Origin: a virus
DNA: 54,081 nt
Strand: one strand, 5' to 3'
IMG/VR virus record: IMGVR_UViG_3300020021_000019
Span: 1-54,081 of that record
The notes under the pieces were generated by a model, which did not search any database, was not told the origin of the DNA, and worked only from the letters and a program-made list of their open reading frames with translations. A program made the position numbers and the translations under genes. Of the stretch, positions 1,280 through 53,884 are shown piece after piece. Within the stretch, counting starts at the first letter, position 1, and each line of letters starts with the position of its first letter.

Positions 1280-3001
1280 TTAGGCTGCGGCTGCGAGTTC
1301 GGTCGGGATGTTCGCCCGGACCAGAGCTTCGGCCGCTTCGGGGCAAACTGAATTGCCAATAAGTCGGACCTTGCCGGACTTGGTTTTGGCCGCCGACAGG
1401 TCGTAGCCCGCCGCGAAACGACCGAACTGCGCCCGGAGCAGCTCCTCCGGCTCCAGCATCCGGAGGCCGATATCCACGATTTGGTATTCGGTCCCCGCGA
1501 TGGTAACGAGCCCCATTCGATCCTTGGTCGTCAGGGTCCGCATTGGCTTGCGGACGGTCTGCCCGACCCCTTGCCCGTAATAGGTGACCAGGAAGGCGCG
1601 GACCTCGGCGAGGTGGTTGCCGTTGGCCGTGACCGTGGGGAGGGGCTGGTTCAGGTCGGCGCCATGATTGTCGCCACGCAGCTTGAGTAGGTTGGCCGCG
1701 ACAAGGCTGTGATGGTCGCTGGCGGTGACGGTGGCGAGCGGCTCGTGGGGAGACAGCCCGGGACGCTGGCCACGGTCGCCGAAATGCTTCGCGATGAACG
1801 CGGTGCACAGCGCGTGCTTCTGTCCGCCAGCAACCACTGTTCCGAGCGGCTGCTCGATATCGAGAGCGCGAGCCGCCTGTCCGTCCCGCTCACCGTATCC
1901 AGTCTGAATCAGGGTCGGGGCAATGAGCGCGTGGCGGTTTTCGACAGTGGTCGTCGGCAACGGCGCATCGGCTGGAGTGGTGGCCGGAGACTTCGATCCG
2001 GCATGGTCGATAGCGATCATGACTGGCGTGAGCAGCGCACGATCATTCTTGGCTGTGACCGTACCGACCGGCTCGGCCATACCAGTTGCTGGCGTCTGCC
2101 CAGCCCGGCCACCCACCCCGACGATCGATGGAACGACGACCGCATGACCACGCCGGGAGGCGGTGACGGTTGAGAGCGGCGCGTCGAGGGATTCGCTCCT
2201 GTCATCCAGGTTCCCGTGATTGACCTTGACGATGAAAGGCGCCGGATTGTCGAACACGAACCGGCGCATCCCTTCCGCGATCCGCCACAGCGTTTTGCCC
2301 GCCAGCGGCCGCTTCCGCTCGAAGATCGACGGGCACCGGAGTGACCAGTCTATGCACTCGGCCGCCGTGTGGAGTGGCTTGAGGATCGCGGCAAAGAGAT
2401 CGGGGTTGGCCGAGGCAGATCCGTGGGTGACCGCAGGCCAGAGAATCGGCACGCCATCCCGACGGGCGATCAGAAACAAGCGGCGGCGCTTGGTAGGGGC
2501 ACCGTAGGCCGAGGCATCGAGCACTCGGCAGTCCACTGCGTAGCCGAGGTTCTCCAGCCGCTTCCGCCACCGATCAAACGTCTGCCCCATCCGCGCCTTA
2601 TCTGGCCGCCCGTCCTTGCCGAGAGGGCCCCAGCCTTTGAACTCAGAGACGTTTTCCAGCATGATGATCTGCGGCCGCACGGCCTTGGCCCATCGCGTCA
2701 CCACCCAGGCCAGTGACCGGATATTCTGCTTCCGGGGCACGTTGCCCTTGGCCACGGAAAAGTGTGTACAGTCGGGGCTGGCCCAGAGCAGGTAGACCGG
2801 CTCACCGCGCGTAGCCACTTCCGGCTTCACATCCCAGATATCAGCCGTGAGATGCCGCGTCTTCGGGTGGTTGGCCCTGTGGGCCGCCAACGCCACTGCG
2901 TCGTGGTTGATCGCGAGATCTACCGGGCGGCCGAGCGCCGCCTCAATGCCAGTGGAGGCACCGCCACCGCCCGCAAATAGGTCGATCAGGAGCCCCGTCA
3001 C
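1280..3001 (-). CDS. DNA (cytosine-5) methyltransferase with repeat-rich recognition region
   Basis: A 573-residue protein. Motif I is DLFAGGGGASTGIE (residues 7-20), the catalytic Cys78 sits in ASPDCTHFS, and the ENV motif is at 116-118. The C-terminal RLIGNSVCP matches motif X of C5 methyltransferases. Between about 265 and 490, where the target recognition domain should be, seven copies of a P-(L/V/M)-x-T-(V/L/T)-T/V-x motif occur about 35 residues apart. The start is GTG at 3001, overlapping the stop of the LexA-like gene (GTGA). Likely role: modification of phage DNA against host restriction. No cognate endonuclease is seen, so it is probably an orphan enzyme. Confidence 0.9.
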   Translation of the reverse strand: MTGLLIDLFAGGGGASTGIEAALGRPVDLAINHDAVALAAHRANHPKTRHLTADIWDVKPEVATRGEPVYLLWASPDCTHFSVAKGNVPRKQNIRSLAWVVTRWAKAVRPQIIMLENVSEFKGWGPLGKDGRPDKARMGQTFDRWRKRLENLGYAVDCRVLDASAYGAPTKRRRLFLIARRDGVPILWPAVTHGSASANPDLFAAILKPLHTAAECIDWSLRCPSIFERKRPLAGKTLWRIAEGMRRFVFDNPAPFIVKVNHGNLDDRSESLDAPLSTVTASRRGHAVVVPSIVGVGGRAGQTPATGMAEPVGTVTAKNDRALLTPVMIAIDHAGSKSPATTPADAPLPTTTVENRHALIAPTLIQTGYGERDGQAARALDIEQPLGTVVAGGQKHALCTAFIAKHFGDRGQRPGLSPHEPLATVTASDHHSLVAANLLKLRGDNHGADLNQPLPTVTANGNHLAEVRAFLVTYYGQGVGQTVRKPMRTLTTKDRMGLVTIAGTEYQIVDIGLRMLEPEELLRAQFGRFAAGYDLSAAKTKSGKVRLIGNSVCPEAAEALVRANIPTELAAAA

Positions 3002-9377: not shown

Positions 9378-10016
9378 TTAGAACAGCCTGGGCAGCCGGA
9401 GCGCGTAGCTCACACCGACACCGACCATCGGCGCCGCGACCACCTTCCCACCCGACAGCGCCCCACCATAGCCACCGAACAGCGCGAGGCTCAGCCGTGA
9501 CGGGGCGCGGGCCTTGGCGATCACGGCCTGCAATCCCTCGATCACCTGCGTCTGCTGATTCATCCGGCCTTCCGCGTCGATCTGCGCCCGGAGACAGGTC
9601 GAGGCGACGAGTTGGGCGTCCCGCATGGCCGTGAACCCGAGGGCGCCGGCGATCCGCAGGGAGTCCGCCTCAGACGTGCGTTCCTGGTACGCCAGCCGGA
9701 AATAGGCGGCCGAATCGTTCGGGGCGGTATCGACGACCGTCGCTAGTCCGGCCAGGCTATCGGCCCGATGCCCGGAGAGGCCGGCCGCTCGCTGCAGCGC
9801 GGCTACGCGCACGGTCAGCCGGGCGGTCGAATCGCGGAACCGGGTCACCGAATCAGAGGCCCGGCGCTGCAGGCTGTCGAACGTGGGTCGGGTCGCCCTG
9901 AGGCTGTCGAGCTCATGCTGCGTCGCGGGGTCCACCACCGGCGGCCTGCCCGGGTGCAGCAGCCAGCCCACCGCGAAACAGGCGAGGCAGAGAGCGACCC
10001 ACACTATGGGCTTCAT
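9378..10016 (-). CDS. Rz-like inner-membrane spanin candidate
   Basis: 212 residues. One N-terminal transmembrane helix (IVWVALCLACFAVGWLL), then a long coiled-coil-like periplasmic part (about 30-160) with many Ser/Asp/Arg, and a Gly-rich C-terminal end (LFGGYGGALSGGKVVAAP). This layout, next to DUF5675 and membrane proteins, suits an i-spanin. The glycine-rich end is unlike classical Rz. The lipoprotein at 11900-12160 could be the outer-membrane partner. Confidence 0.5.
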   Translation of the reverse strand: MKPIVWVALCLACFAVGWLLHPGRPPVVDPATQHELDSLRATRPTFDSLQRRASDSVTRFRDSTARLTVRVAALQRAAGLSGHRADSLAGLATVVDTAPNDSAAYFRLAYQERTSEADSLRIAGALGFTAMRDAQLVASTCLRAQIDAEGRMNQQTQVIEGLQAVIAKARAPSRLSLALFGGYGGALSGGKVVAAPMVGVGVSYALRLPRLF

Positions 10017-10239: not shown

Positions 10240-10470
10240 TCACGCGCACAGCCTGGCCATCAGGTCCGCCTCGGGGTCATCCCACACGTCTTTCGACTTG
10301 CGCCGCTCCGGGATCCGCATTTCCTCGCAGGCAATCCGGTAACTGGCGCGACTCTGCACCCGCATGACCCCGGACACGGTGAGGAAATAGGAGGTGGCCG
10401 ATCGCACGTCCGGCCGGTCGACCTGGGCCAGGACGGCACCGCCCATCGTGAGCCCGTACCAGACGCACAT
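10240..10470 (-). CDS. Hypothetical protein
   Basis: 76 residues. The start at 10470 is set by a TGATG overlap with the DUF5675 stop. The C-terminal part is charged (CEEMRIPERRKSKDVWDDPE). No recognised family; lies inside the lysis cassette. Confidence 0.5.
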   Translation of the reverse strand: MCVWYGLTMGGAVLAQVDRPDVRSATSYFLTVSGVMRVQSRASYRIACEEMRIPERRKSKDVWDDPEADLMARLCA

Positions 10471-10889
10471 CAGGCGGCCATCCGCGACTCCGGGGATATC
10501 CCCGGCGCCCAGCTGACCACGATCAGGCATTCATCGATGCCGTCCATCGCCGCCATGAAGCGGTCGAAGGCTTCATGGCTCTGAGTGACCATCTCGCTTT
10601 GCCGGCCGAGGCCGAGCAGGACACAGCCCAGCGTGTCCTTCAGGAAGTTCCCGATATGGAGTTCGACATCCTCCCGATCGGGCACGGCCGTGATCTCGAA
10701 CAGGATGCACCGATGCTTGACCGAGAAGCGGCGCTTGAGCGTGTAGGTGCCCGCAGGGATGCAGGAGACATTATTGAGGTTGTCGCGCCATGGGGGCTCT
10801 AACGTGTGGAAGGACAGGCCATCCGGCAGCGTGAGGCGGCCGAAGGTGACGGCGCTGCTGTCGGTCCGGAGGAGGGCGAGAATCATCAT
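10470..10889 (-). CDS. DUF5675 family protein (candidate cell-wall enzyme)
   Basis: 139 residues. The family signature is clear: FGRLTLPDGLSFHTLEPPW, then CIPAGTYTLKRR, then LHIGNFLKDTLGCVLLG. DUF5675 proteins sit in phage lysis cassettes, often where an endolysin is expected. The H-x-G-N ... G-C pattern recalls the His/Cys site of L,D-transpeptidase-like folds; that link is an inference. No other endolysin is recognised in the window, making this the best candidate for the muralytic protein. Coupled to the membrane protein upstream (ATGA). Confidence 0.75.
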   Translation of the reverse strand: MMILALLRTDSSAVTFGRLTLPDGLSFHTLEPPWRDNLNNVSCIPAGTYTLKRRFSVKHRCILFEITAVPDREDVELHIGNFLKDTLGCVLLGLGRQSEMVTQSHEAFDRFMAAMDGIDECLIVVSWAPGISPESRMAA

Positions 10890-11209
10890 GGCTTGGCCTC
10901 GGGGATGGGCTGTTCGTTGGAGTCATTCACGCGCCGGCCCGGTATCTGCCCCGCGAGGACTTGAGTCGTGCCGGCCTTGCCGCTGGCCTGGCCGAAGGCG
11001 CTGGCCGCCACCCCGACGGTGACCGGTACCAGCGCGGCACCGCCCAGCCAGAGCAGGATCGACGTGTCGTCCTTCTTGAAGGCGAGGAACAGCGAGGCCA
11101 CGAAGGCTGCCACGAACGCCAAGGCCGCGGCGACCAGGACGAACAGTTTCTTGGCCCGGTCGTAGTCGAGCGCTCCCTCGGTATCCGAGATCCAGCGGAG
11201 GCGACTCAT
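10886..11209 (-). CDS. Holin-like two-pass membrane protein
   Basis: 107 residues. A cytoplasmic N-terminus (MSRLRWISDTEGALDYDR) is followed by two strong membrane segments (LFVLVAAALAFVAAFVASLF and ILLWLGGAALVPVTVGVAAS) and a polar tail. Start at 11209 overlaps the receiver-domain stop (ATGA). Its size and topology, directly before DUF5675, suit a class II holin. Confidence 0.55.
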   Translation of the reverse strand: MSRLRWISDTEGALDYDRAKKLFVLVAAALAFVAAFVASLFLAFKKDDTSILLWLGGAALVPVTVGVAASAFGQASGKAGTTQVLAGQIPGRRVNDSNEQPIPEAKP

Positions 11210-11517
11210 GCCGTCCCCCACAACGCGGCCACGGCCTCGACCAGTGCCTCATTCGTGAACGGCTTGGCCAGGGTCGCGTGGGAGTAGCCGGAGACGGTGA
11301 CGACGGGCACGTCAGGAAAGACGAGCGCGATATCGTGGCCGGAGCCATCAGGCAGGCGCTCATCCAGCACCATCGCGTCCCACGGCCCTTCGAGTGCCAG
11401 CGCTTGCCCCATCGAGTCCGCCGCCGCGACGAGGTACCCCGCATCCACCAGGACCCGGACCATCGCTTCGCGGATCGCCCGCTCGTCATCCACCACCAGT
11501 ATGCGTTTCGTGGTCAT
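11206..11517 (-). CDS. Stand-alone response-regulator receiver domain
   Basis: 103 residues forming a CheY-like receiver. ILVVDDE gives the acidic pair D10/D11, LDERLPDGSG gives the phospho-acceptor D52, TVSGYS gives the Ser switch residue S76, and AKPF gives K85. All five conserved positions are present. S76 and K85 are only 9 residues apart where CheY has about 22, so helix alpha4 and strand beta5 are shortened. There is no output domain. The gene is coupled by ATGA overlaps to membrane proteins on both sides in the lysis cassette. Confidence 0.85.
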   Translation of the reverse strand: MTTKRILVVDDERAIREAMVRVLVDAGYLVAAADSMGQALALEGPWDAMVLDERLPDGSGHDIALVFPDVPVVTVSGYSHATLAKPFTNEALVEAVAALWGTA

Positions 11518-37790: not shown

Positions 37791-39152
37791 TTACACCCTG
37801 AATTGAGAGGAGCCGTACTGGCCCTGTTGAACCACCGGGAACCGGTAGTCGATGTAGTAACCGATCGCGTCCGAGATGTGCGTCAGCTTCGGGTCCTTCT
37901 TCTTGTCGATCTCACCGGAGCCACCTTTGAGCAGCGCCACACCGTCCAGATCCTTGGCGAGGTGCGGCGCGAATTGGGCGTCGACCATCAACCGGATCGT
38001 GCCATCACCGGAAAGGGTGCGGCTGTTGACCGCGTTGACCCGGGCCCGCTCGGCAGGGTTGGCCGACTTCACATGGAAGGAGACCCGCTGGCCGAACCCC
38101 TGGAACTCGCCGGCGCCGTTCTTGAGCAGATCCTTGGCGATGTCCCAGTCGGAGCCCTGCACCTTTGCGGTCCCGCGGGCACCACCGGTGGAGTCGCCAT
38201 ACACCTCGACCCGACCCTCGTGTGCACCCCAGTCGAGCAGCAGCCGGCGGCAGACAGCGGGTGTGTTCGAGTTGTTGTCGATCCAGACCTCGCCGATCGC
38301 GGCGGTGCCGATCCCACCGACCGGCAGCATCAGCTCCTGGCAGACCGCGGCGACACCGGGCTCCACGTTGAAGTCGAGGCAGATGATCAGTGTGGCCCGG
38401 GGGTTGTAGAGCTTCCGGAGGGCGCCCTTGTTGCGATCGCCGAAGCAGTAGTAGGCCCGGCCGCTGAAGTTGACGAAGCTGGCCTCGTACTCCTGCTGAA
38501 AGGTCAGAAGGTCGAGATCTCGCTTGGCCTGAGCAATCTTCTCGGGTGGCAGGATGTCGGCACTGACCCAGTGGAAGTGCGCCCACTCCGCGGGATTGCT
38601 GAGCATCAAGGCCTTAGCCTGCTCGGCAACATCGTAGTAGTGGTTGCGACCCTCCGGCACGCCGATCATGTCACACCAGCCGTTGCGATCGGCCAGCGCC
38701 GGCTGGACATTCTCGCCCCAAGCCTCAGGCTTCATGTTCCCGTACTCGTCGAGGATCCCACCATCCCACGGTGAACCCTCCATCCGCTCCGGCTTGTCCA
38801 TCCCGATCACACAGAGCTCGCCCCCGTGCCAGAGCGGGATGACCAGTTCGGTCTCGCTCGGCCGGCCGCGCATGGCGTCTTTCGGGATCATCCGCTTCAG
38901 GTCTTTCCAGAAGATCCGCTTCGCTTGGTCTCGGGTCGGCGCCGCGGCGAAGAACCTGGGGTTGTCGTGCTTGGTGCCCCGCAGGGACCGCTTCGACACC
39001 CTTCGCTTGGCGATCTCGCTCTTGCCCGATCGGCGGCCAGCCGGTACGACCGTGACCAGCGCCTGACAGTCGAAATAGGCTCGCTGCTTCGCATGGTGCC
39101 GGAGCTGATCCCATCGAGGGTTGAGGAGCCGGGGCTGGGCAGCGGTGGTCAT
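37791..39152 (-). CDS. terL: Terminase large subunit
   Basis: 453 residues. Walker A variant PAGRRSGKS (38-46), Walker B GGILDEYG (131-138), and the RNase H-like nuclease acids in CLDFNVEPG (D260), YGDSTGG (D320) and HISDAIGYY near residue 432. ATGA overlap with the small subunit gene. Packages and cuts concatemeric phage DNA. Confidence 0.92.
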   Translation of the reverse strand: MTTAAQPRLLNPRWDQLRHHAKQRAYFDCQALVTVVPAGRRSGKSEIAKRRVSKRSLRGTKHDNPRFFAAAPTRDQAKRIFWKDLKRMIPKDAMRGRPSETELVIPLWHGGELCVIGMDKPERMEGSPWDGGILDEYGNMKPEAWGENVQPALADRNGWCDMIGVPEGRNHYYDVAEQAKALMLSNPAEWAHFHWVSADILPPEKIAQAKRDLDLLTFQQEYEASFVNFSGRAYYCFGDRNKGALRKLYNPRATLIICLDFNVEPGVAAVCQELMLPVGGIGTAAIGEVWIDNNSNTPAVCRRLLLDWGAHEGRVEVYGDSTGGARGTAKVQGSDWDIAKDLLKNGAGEFQGFGQRVSFHVKSANPAERARVNAVNSRTLSGDGTIRLMVDAQFAPHLAKDLDGVALLKGGSGEIDKKKDPKLTHISDAIGYYIDYRFPVVQQGQYGSSQFRV

Positions 39153-40925: not shown

Positions 40926-41698
40926 GCGGCGACCTCGCCTTTCGGTGGTGCGGCAGTCCAACTCGATCCATCCAACGCGGTCACTTTCGCCAGCACCCGC
41001 TCCGCCCGTCTGATGCAGCCGGCCAGAAACTCAGGGCTGAGACTCCGATCCTCGATCAGCGGGAAGTCCGCCAGCGCCTTACACAGCGAGGCCACCGAAC
41101 AGGGACGGCCTTCCGGCCGGTCAACACCCTCCAGCCACATCAGGAACCGGCGGGCCCAGGTATCCTGATCCGTGCTGGCCGGGAGTTTCTCGAACCATTC
41201 GACCACCGCATGGCGGTCCGGCTGTCCGAAAATCCGTCCGACCAACTCATCCACGGCAGCAGCAGGAACGTTCGTTCGTTCGTTCGTACCGTCCGTAGCC
41301 CCCACTTTCGCTTCACTTTTCCCCCACTTTTCCCCCATTTTTCCCTCAACAACTTCTGGGGGTTTTATGGGGGGTCGACTCCCTGACGGCTTCTTTTTGT
41401 CTTGCTCCCGGCGGGCCAGAAGTTTCTCCTGACGCCACCAGCCGCGGAGGTCGCCATCGGGGCACCATTCGCGCATGGCCTTGGCGAACTGGCCTTCCTT
41501 GCCGCGCCAGAGGGCCCACGATTCGAGCGCGATGTCGGGCACCTGATCGATCCGGCCATCCTGCCGGTGCTCCCCAAAGGCGCAGCACATCGCGTTGTAG
41601 TGGCCCAGCGCGTGGGCCTGCTGGATCTTGAGCCGGTCGGCCAGGAACAGCACGACTTCAGACCGTGGCGTCGCCACATCCCATCGTATCCAGGTCAT
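40922..41698 (-). CDS. Replication initiator-like protein (lambda O-like arrangement)
   Basis: 258 residues. N-terminal domain (1-100) resembles phage initiator winged-helix regions (WIRWDVATPRSEVVLFLADR, HALGHYNAMCCAFGEHRQDG). A low-complexity basic linker (100-150) is followed by a C-terminal helical domain (DELVGRIFGQPDRHAVVEWF ...). The linker DNA holds direct 11-bp repeats like iterons. The gene precedes the HerA-like gene product in order of expression only by position on the chromosome; overlap with it is ATGA. Confidence 0.6.
   Translation of the reverse strand: MTWIRWDVATPRSEVVLFLADRLKIQQAHALGHYNAMCCAFGEHRQDGRIDQVPDIALESWALWRGKEGQFAKAMREWCPDGDLRGWWRQEKLLARREQDKKKPSGSRPPIKPPEVVEGKMGEKWGKSEAKVGATDGTNERTNVPAAAVDELVGRIFGQPDRHAVVEWFEKLPASTDQDTWARRFLMWLEGVDRPEGRPCSVASLCKALADFPLIEDRSLSPEFLAGCIRRAERVLAKVTALDGSSWTAAPPKGEVAA
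41271..41286. repeat. Tetranucleotide repeat (TTCG)4
   Basis: Four perfect TTCG units (CGAA on the coding strand) in the linker of the replication initiator. As the unit is not a multiple of three, gain or loss of one copy would shift the reading frame. Confidence 0.9.
41304..41347. repeat. Four 11-bp direct repeats, candidate replication origin iterons
   Basis: Plus-strand units ACTTTCGCTTC, ACTTTTCCCCC, ACTTTTCCCCC and ATTTTTCCCTC follow each other without gaps. The 11-bp period does not fit the codon frame, so selection is on DNA. They lie in the linker part of the initiator gene, next to a T-rich tract (41341-41367), as lambda iterons lie in gene O. Confidence 0.65.
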
Positions 41699-43464
41699 CG
41701 CCGGGCCTCCAGGAAGAGCACGGGCTTAGCGACGACTCGGCCGGTGGACGGGTAGTCGATGAAGCCAAGGGTCCGGAGTCGGCTGACGGCGTTGGCAAAT
41801 CCCTTCGAGGCGAGATTGCCGTACCCGGCTGCCGCGGCGACCGTGGTCTTTTCCAGGGAGTCAGGGTAGGCCTCGATAATCGGACGGAGGATCTTCTCCG
41901 AGGCCCCGCCGAGGACCGCGAGCAACCGTGCCTGCAGCTCCTGGGTGGATCGTGGCGCCGCGACTGCGTTGGCGTTGTCGCGGCCATGATCGGTGAGCGC
42001 GACGACGCCTGGAGCGGGGTAGGTGATCGCGCCCGCAGTCTTCAATCCGCTGATGGCGTTCGCGAAGCCTTTGCTGGCGAGGTTGCTGTACCCGGCGAGT
42101 AGCGCCACCAGTTCCTTCTCTGGGTTCTCCGATCCCAGCGCCTCGAGCTCGGCCAAGGCATCGAGGATGCGCTGCTCGACGCCCGACACCCCCCCAAGGC
42201 TCGCCTTCCGGGCCATCGGAATGGCAGTCTTCCGGATTGCCGCCCTCGTTTGAGGCGGGACGCGGTGCGTCTCCCTCGAGAAGTTTCCTGCCAGAATCAC
42301 TGGTGGCTTCAGGAGGCGCGCGAACGCGCTCTCAAAGCGGCTTACCGACTCGGCGTTGTCCGCCACGAGCTGGCGGGCCACGGCGGTATTCGATTCGAGG
42401 TGCGCCGAGAGCTGCTCCACGGCCGCACGCTCCTCAGCCGTGAGCATCGGGACTTCCCGTATATCTGGCTTGACAGATAACGGGGCAGGGGAGGCCGCCG
42501 CCGCCTTCTGCCGAACATCCCGCTCGAGCTCAGCAATTCGCCGGCGCAGGGCCTTGGGATCGTCCTGCTCGGCTGTCTTGACGACCTCGGCCAGATCGGT
42601 GCGCAGCGCCTCGACGTCGACCTTAGCCAGCGTGGCGGCCTTTGCAGCTTTGCCGACCTCCGGGGTCGCTGAGGCGTCGAAGGTGGTCTTCTTGGCGAAG
42701 TGCACCCGCTGGAAGATCCGGAGCCAGGACGGCGACCAGACGTAGCCTTCGGCTTGGGCCAAGCCGGGGAGCTCACCGACCAGTTTGCGATCGGCGCCGG
42801 CCTCCTGGACCCACTCATCGAGCGCCTTCCGCTCGTGGGTGCCGTTGACCTGCAGGACGCAGAGGCACTCGACCTGCGAGAGCACCTCCTTGTTAACCGA
42901 TTGCGGCCGCTGGGTGACCAGCGTGGCGCCGACCCCGTAGTTCCGGCCCAGTCGGATGATGTTCTCGAACGCCCCCAGCATCCGCGCCTCGTCTGGGCCC
43001 GTCCGCTGCGGGATGAACTTCTGCGACTCTTCCACGACCAGGTGCACGGCCGACCGCTGGGTCTTCTTGAGGTGGAAGAATTCCTCGGCGAAGGCCGCGG
43101 CGAACCGCTTCCGCTCACCCTCTCGAAATGGCGAGAGGTCAAGCACGGCCGACACCCGCTTCTCGACCAGGAACCGGGCCACCTTGGCGCCCGACTCCGG
43201 AGTCAGCGGTACGTCGCCGTGCTCCCCACCGAGGACGAAGATGTCTTTGCCCTTGCCCTTCCCATCGGCCGCGACACGGAGGGACCACCAATTCCCGACC
43301 GGATCGATCACGATGACCTGGGCGCCGGCGTCCAGCATCTGCTCCGCGAGCAGCTGGGCCAGGTAGGTCTTGCCGGCGCCTTTGCGGCCGATCGCGGCCA
43401 AGGTCTGCGTGACCGCATCGAGCGGGAGCGACAGCTCGCGGGCCAGCTTGAGGGAGGTGGTCAT
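41695..43464 (-). CDS. HerA/FtsK-like P-loop ATPase
   Basis: 589 residues. Walker A GRKGAGKT (26-33), IVIDPVGNWWSL, Walker B HLVVEESQKF with the acidic pair, and TLVTQRPQSVNKEV with an Arg/Gln sensor resemble the HerA family (DUF87-type). A coiled coil follows (about 270-330). At the C-terminus two similar winged-helix-like repeats start GYSNLASKGFANAI and GYGNLASKGFANAV. The start at 43464 overlaps the upstream stop (ATGA). Could be the replicative or resection motor; no DnaB or AAA loader is seen. Confidence 0.75.
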   Translation of the reverse strand: MTTSLKLARELSLPLDAVTQTLAAIGRKGAGKTYLAQLLAEQMLDAGAQVIVIDPVGNWWSLRVAADGKGKGKDIFVLGGEHGDVPLTPESGAKVARFLVEKRVSAVLDLSPFREGERKRFAAAFAEEFFHLKKTQRSAVHLVVEESQKFIPQRTGPDEARMLGAFENIIRLGRNYGVGATLVTQRPQSVNKEVLSQVECLCVLQVNGTHERKALDEWVQEAGADRKLVGELPGLAQAEGYVWSPSWLRIFQRVHFAKKTTFDASATPEVGKAAKAATLAKVDVEALRTDLAEVVKTAEQDDPKALRRRIAELERDVRQKAAAASPAPLSVKPDIREVPMLTAEERAAVEQLSAHLESNTAVARQLVADNAESVSRFESAFARLLKPPVILAGNFSRETHRVPPQTRAAIRKTAIPMARKASLGGVSGVEQRILDALAELEALGSENPEKELVALLAGYSNLASKGFANAISGLKTAGAITYPAPGVVALTDHGRDNANAVAAPRSTQELQARLLAVLGGASEKILRPIIEAYPDSLEKTTVAAAAGYGNLASKGFANAVSRLRTLGFIDYPSTGRVVAKPVLFLEARR

Positions 43465-43724
43465 ACCCGCCTCCAGGTGTAGCCATTGACGCTGGTGATC
43501 TGGTGGGCGAGGGATAGCCGCCGGCAGGCAGCATCCGCGGCATGACTCGACAGATCCGACCGTCGCGCGATCTCCATCACGCCGAACGTGCCGCTGGCCA
43601 GCACATCGAGCACCCGGCGCTCCTGCTCCTCCGGGCCCGGCGTGTGGTCGTGGCGGTCCGTGGTGCGCGGGACGTGGATGCGGGGGCCGTAGTTCGGCAA
43701 CCGGCGTTGGCTCGGGAGGGTCAT
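43461..43724 (-). CDS. Winged-helix-like DNA-binding protein
   Basis: 87 residues. RRVLDVLASGTFGVMEIARR, then SDLSSHAADAACRRLSLA form a helix-turn-helix with a C-terminal wing (ITSVNGYTWRRV). N-terminal 30 residues basic and unstructured. First gene after attP; probably a regulator or loader for the ATPase downstream. Confidence 0.6.
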   Translation of the reverse strand: MTLPSQRRLPNYGPRIHVPRTTDRHDHTPGPEEQERRVLDVLASGTFGVMEIARRSDLSSHAADAACRRLSLAHQITSVNGYTWRRV

Positions 43725-43772
43725 GCCAGCGTTCCCCGTGCAACAATCGGGGTGAATTGGGCCAAAGTGGAA

Positions 43773-52596: not shown

Positions 52597-52778
52597 GCGG
52601 GTCTCTTCTTCGGTTGGAGCGACCGTCCGTGCCGGGCCGGGTAGTCCTCTTCGTTCCGTCGCCGACCACCCATGCCGCGCGCATTGAGCTGGGTCCGGCG
52701 ATTGTCCTTGAACGGACCTCCGCACTCGGCGCACTCGCACAGGTACTGGCGGCGGTCCCGATCGGCCCGGCGCTTCAT
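52593..52778 (-). CDS. 61-aa basic zinc-binding protein
   Basis: Arg-rich with CECAECGG (14-21). ATGA overlaps at both ends. Probably nucleic-acid-binding. Confidence 0.55.
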   Translation of the reverse strand: MKRRADRDRRQYLCECAECGGPFKDNRRTQLNARGMGGRRRNEEDYPARHGRSLQPKKRPA

Positions 52779-53884
52779 GCGGCACCCGAGACGTCTGGGC
52801 TGATCCGCTTCCGCGCGAGCTCGATATAGGCCGGCTTGAGGTCGATGTGGACTGCCGCGCGTCCCAGGCCGAGCGCCACCTTCGCCGTGGTGCCGGCGCC
52901 GCCGAACGGGTCGAGCACGGTGTCGCCGATAGCCGAGCCCGCCAGAATGCAGCGCCGCGGGATTTCCTCGGGGAAGGTGGCGAAGTGGGCACCCTTGTAC
53001 GGCTTGCAGTTGATTGTCCAGACGGATCGTGCGTTGCGAGTCTCAGGGTTCACCCCAAATCGACGGGTCGATTTTCCCGTCTGCCGGTGGCCACCGCTCA
53101 GGCCATCCGTGCCCGGATCGAATCGAGCCTCGGCCCCGGTCGTGGACACCTCGGCAATCGCGGCCGCGTTGAAGTAGTACCGGCGCTGTTTGGCGAAGAG
53201 GAACAGGTATTCATGGGCCCGGGTGGGCCGGTCCCGGACGCTCTCAGGCATCGGGTTCCGCTTGTGCCAGATGATGTCCTGCCGGAGCACCCAGCCATCC
53301 TCCTGAAGCGCGAAGGCCGCCCGCCAAGGGAGCCCCAGCAAGCTCTTCAGTGGCAGCCCGCCGAACGCTCGGCGAACGGTGGTGTTCCGGCTCTCCCGCT
53401 GGTTGTCGCGGGAACCTTCCAGCGTTGAGCCGGCATCCGAGCCCCGCCCGCCATCGGTGTAGCAATCCCCGAGGTTGAGCCAAAGGGTTCCATCCGGGGT
53501 GAGGACCCGCCGCACTTCCCGGAAGATCTCGACCAGCCTGGCCACGTACTCCGCCGGCGAATCTTCCACTCCGACCTGGTGGTCGATCCGCCTGGCCCCG
53601 CACGGGCATTGCGAACGGACAGGAACGGCGTAGGCAGATTTGGCCGGCTGACCGCCCCGAGTATTCGAGAACCGACCATGGCCCTCGCCGGCGCCGGTGG
53701 TGTCGTTGCGCGGCTTCACCCGCCCGCGGTGAGGACAGTCCGGCTCCCCGCCTTCCCACTGGCCGGTTCCGTAGTCCCGGAGCCCCCAGTACGGCGGACT
53801 GGTCACACAGACGCGGGCCGAGGCCTCCGGCAGTGTCCGGAGAACCGTGGGCGCATGGCCGGTGAGCAGTTGGAGCGAAGTCAT
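52775..53884 (-). CDS. DNA methyltransferase (N6-adenine or N4-cytosine), amino type
   Basis: 369 residues. Motif IV VTSPPYWGLRDYGTG (28-42) comes first and motif I (FGGAGTTAKVALGLGRAAVH) last, the beta-class order. TSPPYW is common to N4-cytosine and N6-adenine enzymes. CPCG and CPHRG in the insert may bind zinc. Overlaps DUF1064 (ATGA). Second methyltransferase in the genome. Confidence 0.88.
   Translation of the reverse strand: MTSLQLLTGHAPTVLRTLPEASARVCVTSPPYWGLRDYGTGQWEGGEPDCPHRGRVKPRNDTTGAGEGHGRFSNTRGGQPAKSAYAVPVRSQCPCGARRIDHQVGVEDSPAEYVARLVEIFREVRRVLTPDGTLWLNLGDCYTDGGRGSDAGSTLEGSRDNQRESRNTTVRRAFGGLPLKSLLGLPWRAAFALQEDGWVLRQDIIWHKRNPMPESVRDRPTRAHEYLFLFAKQRRYYFNAAAIAEVSTTGAEARFDPGTDGLSGGHRQTGKSTRRFGVNPETRNARSVWTINCKPYKGAHFATFPEEIPRRCILAGSAIGDTVLDPFGGAGTTAKVALGLGRAAVHIDLKPAYIELARKRISPDVSGAA

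Follow-up and report, generated by a model that had tools for sequence, protein, structure and literature searches.

A stand-alone receiver domain, retaining every residue of its phosphorylation site, is encoded in a probable lysis context within the analyzed viral DNA (54,081 nucleotides, referred to as the window), and stand-alone receivers with intact sites recur among the lysis genes of Alteromonas phages, on five or more backbones unrelated to one another. Receivers had already been annotated in Alteromonas phages, as signalling or auxiliary genes; the proposed connection to lysis appears to be new, in that no paper tying phage receivers to lysis was found in open-access full text. Judging from the sequences, bacterial phosphate signalling may, in some phages, be tied into the timing of lysis.

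The receiver is the product of an ORF on the complement strand. The initial annotation had placed it correctly at 11206-11517, leaving out the strand, which is minus; the plus-strand frame across the same interval encodes a different protein. Translation bears out the rest of that description: in the 103-aa product D10 and D11 (the acidic pair), D52 (the phospho-Asp), S76 and K85 are all present, and there is no output domain. The match to Pfam Response_reg (PF00072; 39.6 bits, E 6.6e-10) exceeds the curated cut-off of 30.2 bits, and is therefore not due to chance; many solved receivers are also matched, when the sequence is searched against a structure database. GC content by codon position (0.73/0.45/0.83) is in line with that of the adjacent genes. 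Coordinates of this and of the other features are reported in Table 1.

Table 1. Features of the window and of the phage contigs compared with it (contig coordinates are preceded by the contig label)
Feature	Coordinates	Strand	Evidence or remark
Window: 212-aa protein, candidate i-spanin-like	9378-10016	minus	N-terminal TM and long polar region; hydropathy
Window: DUF5675 protein, 139 aa, putative peptidoglycan enzyme/endolysin	10470-10889	minus	PF18925, 100.6 bits
Window: membrane protein B, 107 aa	10886-11209	minus	two TM (about 22-40, 51-69); hydropathy
Window: stand-alone receiver, 103 aa	11206-11517	minus	PF00072 match, AF2 model, VIA Z about 17
Window: membrane protein A, 128 aa	11514-11900	minus	two TM (about 9-27, 35-53), charged C-terminal tail; hydropathy
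Window: small protein, 86 aa	11900-12160	minus	lipoprotein-type N-terminus (LAGC); weak LPAM_1 match
Window: TerL	37791-39152		
Window: 683-aa ORF	41695-43746	minus	second terminase-large-subunit PHROG, phrog_2666, 1.8e-19
Window: DNA methyltransferase	1280-3001	minus	near record end
Window: DNA methyltransferase	52775-53884	minus	near record end
V19 pseudo-receiver	L123:3498-3950		phospho-Asp and Lys lost
Stand-alone receiver, 12-kb viral contig	L105:6049-6420		terminase-like ORF nearby (by eye)
DUF5675 or M15 slot	L132:2438-2836		
DUF5675 or M15 slot	L124:3884-4240		
DUF5675 or M15 slot	L114:5507-5896		
DUF5675 or M15 slot	L116:6315-6713		
Lipoprotein gene overlapping a spanin-like gene	L117:4723-5055		other frame; weak Rz-like spanin PHROG match
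Lipoprotein gene overlapping a spanin-like gene	L116:4744-5043		other frame; weak Rz-like spanin PHROG match

When the window receiver is aligned with 49 bacterial receivers, 9 positions separate S76 from K85, against a median of 22 (range 16-24), in agreement with the shortening by about 13 residues originally noticed; from D52 to S76 there are 24 positions instead of the typical 28, about 4 fewer. The beta4 strand ends in T74-V75-S76-G77-Y78, lacking the FATGUY Phe at S/T-2, and the beta5 aromatic (Tyr/Phe) is also absent, the K-3 position being T82.

Structure prediction, suggested at the outset as a check, gave a confident receiver fold. The AlphaFold2 model, built from a 50-row alignment (mean pLDDT 93.7, pTM 0.87), contains five strands (5-9, 29-33, 48-52, 72-76 and a short beta5 near 83-84) along with alpha1, alpha2, alpha3 and alpha5; alpha4 is missing. 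Hundreds of solved receivers are matched by Foldseek and VIA-align, the best VIA rows giving Z 16-17.5 across 96-103 residues. CckA Rec (6tne) scores Z 16.5. In the sequence search, 2lpm, which we take to be Sma0114, aligns to residues 4-92. As far as the prediction tells, the receiver fold thus tolerates the deletion. CckA Rec, Sma0114 and SdrG are described as receivers without an ordered alpha4, acting as passive phosphotransfer intermediates, and Sma0114 is reported to lack the beta5 aromatic too (PMC9981736); the short S76-K85 gap is therefore extreme, not impossible, and the 103-aa protein, with its 9-position beta4-beta5 link, would serve as a minimal example of the fold. Having neither alpha4 in the model nor a Tyr/Phe at K-3, it departs from the classical Y-T coupled switch receivers (CheY/OmpR type), and for the same reason a CheY-type switch is unlikely: the protein fits a phosphate drain or passive acceptor better than an allosteric output.

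Likeness to the CckA-type intermediary receivers (6tne; PMC9981736) extends to S-G-Y at the end of beta4, the want of a conserved beta5 aromatic, the intact phospho-site and the tree grouping described below. The window protein differs from them in being stand-alone and phage-borne, in its beta4-beta5 link (9 versus about 16-21 in those hybrid-kinase receivers that were compared) and in the residue at S-2, Thr and not Phe. The Rec-only FATGUY proteins (Sma0114, SdrG, MrrA, CpdR; PMC9981736) share with it the stand-alone condition; they differ by the Phe, absent from the TVSGY of the window protein, and by a much longer linker, and the window protein is a phage gene with no kinase detectable in the window: neither a histidine kinase ATPase domain nor a second receiver was found there.

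In the maximum-likelihood tree the window receiver falls in a 10-row clade with bacterial receivers (support 98/83). The seven bacterial members scanned are hybrid kinases of PAS/GAF-HisKA-HATPase-Rec organization, in which the receiver is C-terminal, and CckA is among the best-covering NCBIfam matches of the window receiver. Since the bacterial rows are a sampled set, fetched using this receiver as query, the tree gives the nearest sampled type, not the donor. The Alteromonas phage receivers form their own branch (100/99), apart from the window receiver; the AU test (p 0.129) does not reject one clade uniting every phage receiver. A common origin of all of them is not favoured by these sequences, which do not show orthology between the Alteromonas receivers and that of the window.

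The same features agree with a phosphate drain or kinase decoy, which would take phosphoryl groups from a host kinase, shed them and damp a host response (e.g. envelope stress) late in infection, the place in a late operon merely setting the time of synthesis. Hybrid-kinase-type receivers devoid of alpha4 are the passive intermediates mentioned above (PMC9981736), and the window receiver clusters with such C-terminal receivers, matches CckA, and has neither output domain nor aromatic at T82. Still, this explanation is rather improbable: it leaves unaccounted for the fact that unrelated phages put receivers specifically by small membrane lysis genes, and the Alteromonas receivers are full-length, ordinary in type, and carry the aromatic at K-3.

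As to the neighbourhood of the gene, TerL, portal, head and tail genes mark the window as belonging to a tailed phage. On the minus strand, membrane protein A lies upstream of the receiver, followed by B and by the DUF5675 gene. The ATGA overlaps and the two membrane proteins, to which the receiver had been said to be coupled, both exist: at the A/receiver and receiver/B junctions each start overlaps the preceding stop. The B/DUF5675 junction features the same overlap, so that ATGA represents the general style of the operon, and not a sign of special coupling.

Neither A nor B gave a convincing family match in Pfam, PHROG or NCBIfam. The C-terminal tail of A is probably cytoplasmic, by the positive-inside rule, and A is a candidate holin/antiholin-like partner of the receiver, B a candidate holin-like protein. 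The DUF5675 protein is linked to lysis indirectly; its sharing of gene positions with M15 endolysins in sister Alteromonas phages suggests that DUF5675 is a peptidoglycan-active lysis enzyme. The predicted structure of the window protein (pLDDT 67) is too weak to read, making a fold search meaningless. The lipoprotein-like 86-aa product is a possible o-spanin; the 212-aa protein, for which family searches gave no informative match, carries an i-spanin-like arrangement. The initial placement inside a lysis cassette holds insofar as the membrane proteins and DUF5675 do adjoin the receiver; as A and B match no family, a lytic function for the three products is something we infer.

A search of other phage lysis cassettes for the same domain had also been proposed, and stand-alone receivers are indeed present in those of V22 (a myovirus), A5 (a schitovirus), R9Y1-3 (siphoviruses), R8W and H4/4 (Autographiviridae), PB15 and XX1924. 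V22 was reached through a structural match of the receiver together with a DUF5675 match, and was thus chosen partly by DUF5675; the other Alteromonas cases, several viral contigs among them, were retrieved by receiver similarity (the V22 receiver, then the next found) and not by position. The recurrence consists of individual cases.

The receiver is preceded by a membrane protein and followed by an endolysin in R9Y1, by an endolysin and a holin in PB15, and by DUF5675 in XX1924, whose order is close to that of the window. In A5 the sequence is membrane protein, receiver, Rz-like spanin, 2-TM protein and endolysin; in V22 and L116, receiver, spanin, 2-TM protein and DUF5675, the V22 receiver (ORF30) lying within a run of small genes of which DUF5675 is the last; in R8W and H4/4, holin, membrane protein and receiver. 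The neighbours are independently named by PHROG/Pfam as endolysin (R9Y1, PB15), holin (R8W, PB15) and Rz-like spanin (A5, V22, L116); the A5 endolysin bears the label given by the record depositors. DUF5675 proteins and M15 endolysins occupy equivalent slots, either directly after the receiver (XX1924 and PB15) or downstream of the 2-TM gene (L116/V22 versus L114), which makes a lytic role for the window DUF5675 plausible. Beside the receivers of L117 and L116, lipoprotein genes overlap spanin-like genes in another frame, forming Rz/Rz1-type pairs absent from the published A5 annotation.

Each receiver is directly preceded by a small protein in which a hydrophobic segment is joined by a charged region, probably a coiled coil (coils assessed by eye); the segment is weak in the hydropathy of V22 gp29 and A5 gp10. 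These proteins fall into mutually dissimilar families (V22/A5/L116; R9Y1/R8W; PB15/XX1924; V19; the window), and since the partners are unrelated in sequence, the pairing of receiver and membrane protein recurs. V22 gp30, labelled "CheY-like", and A5 gp11 (PMC7289586, PMC10579305) are like the window protein in being stand-alone receivers whose gene immediately follows that of a small membrane protein, in modules containing Rz-like spanins and an endolysin or DUF5675. They differ from it in being ordinary full-length receivers, in which the alpha4 region is present and a tail extends the C-terminus, and in their separate tree branch; their authors' label is that of an auxiliary/host-recognition module, not of lysis. 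A stand-alone receiver on contig L105 has no obvious lysis genes adjoining it, and is a counter-example to an exclusive lysis location.

Phage lysis regions frequently acquire genes, and the receivers might be hitch-hiking cargo, i.e. moron or auxiliary genes lodged in a permissive late region with no tie to lysis. Published annotations do describe the Alteromonas genes as auxiliary signalling or PhoB-like (PMC7289586, PMC10579305, PMC8228385), with those of A5 and V22 assigned to a host-recognition module that has been exchanged. The same type of immediate neighbour is however found on several unrelated backbones, whose receivers and membrane proteins likewise come from unrelated families, and all the Alteromonas cases besides V22 were retrieved with no reference to position; cargo is accordingly an improbable explanation. 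Module exchange among these Alteromonas phages is documented (PMC10579305) and a single host genus is concerned, so the cases are not fully independent.

Least probable, and quite unlikely, is a phosphorylation-independent adaptor, kept to bind the membrane lysis protein with a merely residual or structural site: helix loss and shortening throughout the window receiver would suit it, as would V19, whose pseudo-receiver, deprived of phospho-Asp and Lys, is still preceded by a small membrane protein (a DUF5675 gene lies nearby on the opposite strand), but the window receiver has lost none of the five positions, and alignment shows the quintet kept in ten further phage or contig receivers (V22, A5, L114, L116, R9Y1, L129, R8W, H4/4, PB15, XX1924).

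The explanation preferred here, though held tentatively and short of being probable, is that of a small cytoplasmic phospho-acceptor, derived from a hybrid kinase and placed in the lysis operon, where it modulates a holin/antiholin-like partner. The ancestor of the receiver would be the C-terminal receiver domain of a hybrid histidine kinase from a bacterium, and phages would have moved it into the operon. Its docking site would most likely be the cytoplasmic tail of the co-translated A, or else B; the phosphorylation state of D52, governed by a small phosphodonor or by a histidine kinase of the host, would alter the contact with the membrane protein, shifting the timing of hole formation. In the absence of both alpha4 and the beta5 aromatic, readout would have to take place at the active-site or alpha1/alpha5 side, an effect through the usual alpha4-beta5-alpha5 face being unlikely; for the window protein, the model takes a more natural form if the active-site side is occupied or the domain is simply a sink for phosphate. 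The contact with A, phosphorylation in the cell and the effect on timing are conjectural steps; the initial suggestion that a host kinase or phosphate drain influences lysis timing is partly supported. Two of the outcomes named in advance as counting against it, a fold unlike that of a receiver and the absence of the domain from other phage lysis cassettes, were looked for, and neither was seen.

The mechanism is supported by a receiver scoring above the Pfam cut-off with all catalytic residues and a five-strand model, by its position between two membrane proteins with DUF5675 close, and by the recurrence in other phages. Against it stand the failure of A and B to match any family, the restriction of all other cases to phages infecting Alteromonas, the lost site of V19, the L105 receiver without lysis neighbours, and the outcome of the searches for relatives. 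No close relative of the window receiver was found in 2.9 million viral contigs, and the sole relative with matching tail genes carries a different cassette, with DUF1353 and neither receiver nor DUF5675.

No relatives of the 447-aa tail-region protein or of membrane protein B were found in viral contigs, and a portal search of genome contigs gave no match. TerL relatives of the window phage, mostly fragments, showed no receiver and no DUF5675. A TerL search of 396 genomes from the phylum of an acidobacterial locus gave one relative, in a stretch without a clear receiver or cassette match, and none was found in 377 genomes of a second phylum. The scan for a short-linker receiver pattern returned one real receiver (L105, with an ordinary linker) and six chance matches. 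Many receiver matches from unannotated "Listeria/Enterococcus/Staphylococcus/Bacteriophage sp." records were excluded as a group, as probable host DNA. Two unverified Pseudomonas phage records were inspected, and in these host-type signalling genes surround the match (by eye).

In the systems known, the timing of lysis depends chiefly on how holin builds up, on antiholins and on the sensing of superinfection (T4, N4). If the phospho-acceptor mechanism is true, a receiver in the lysis operon would couple the lysis decision to host two-component signalling, and auxiliary "CheY/PhoB" genes would need re-labelling; R9Y1, A5, V22, R8W and PB15 are cultured and carry a like gene, making the idea testable in laboratory phages. 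The broader proposal, that unrelated phage groups separately set phosphorylatable receivers by membrane lysis proteins, so that phosphorelay-responsive timing would be a distinct class of regulator, is conceivable, though on the unlikely side. A parallel is offered by the pinholin gp63 and lysis regulator gp62 of N4, a member of Schitoviridae like A5: both are small and membrane-bound, and their cytoplasmic part determines when lysis occurs (PMC12642591). The N4 "Receiver domain" of the same preprint is a short, mutation-clustered region of the pinholin, not a response-regulator fold, and the name is a coincidence.

Elsewhere in the window, the 683-aa ORF gives a further match to a terminase-large-subunit PHROG, besides that of the TerL gene, and, of the two DNA methyltransferases, one is of the C5-cytosine and the other of the N6/N4 type.
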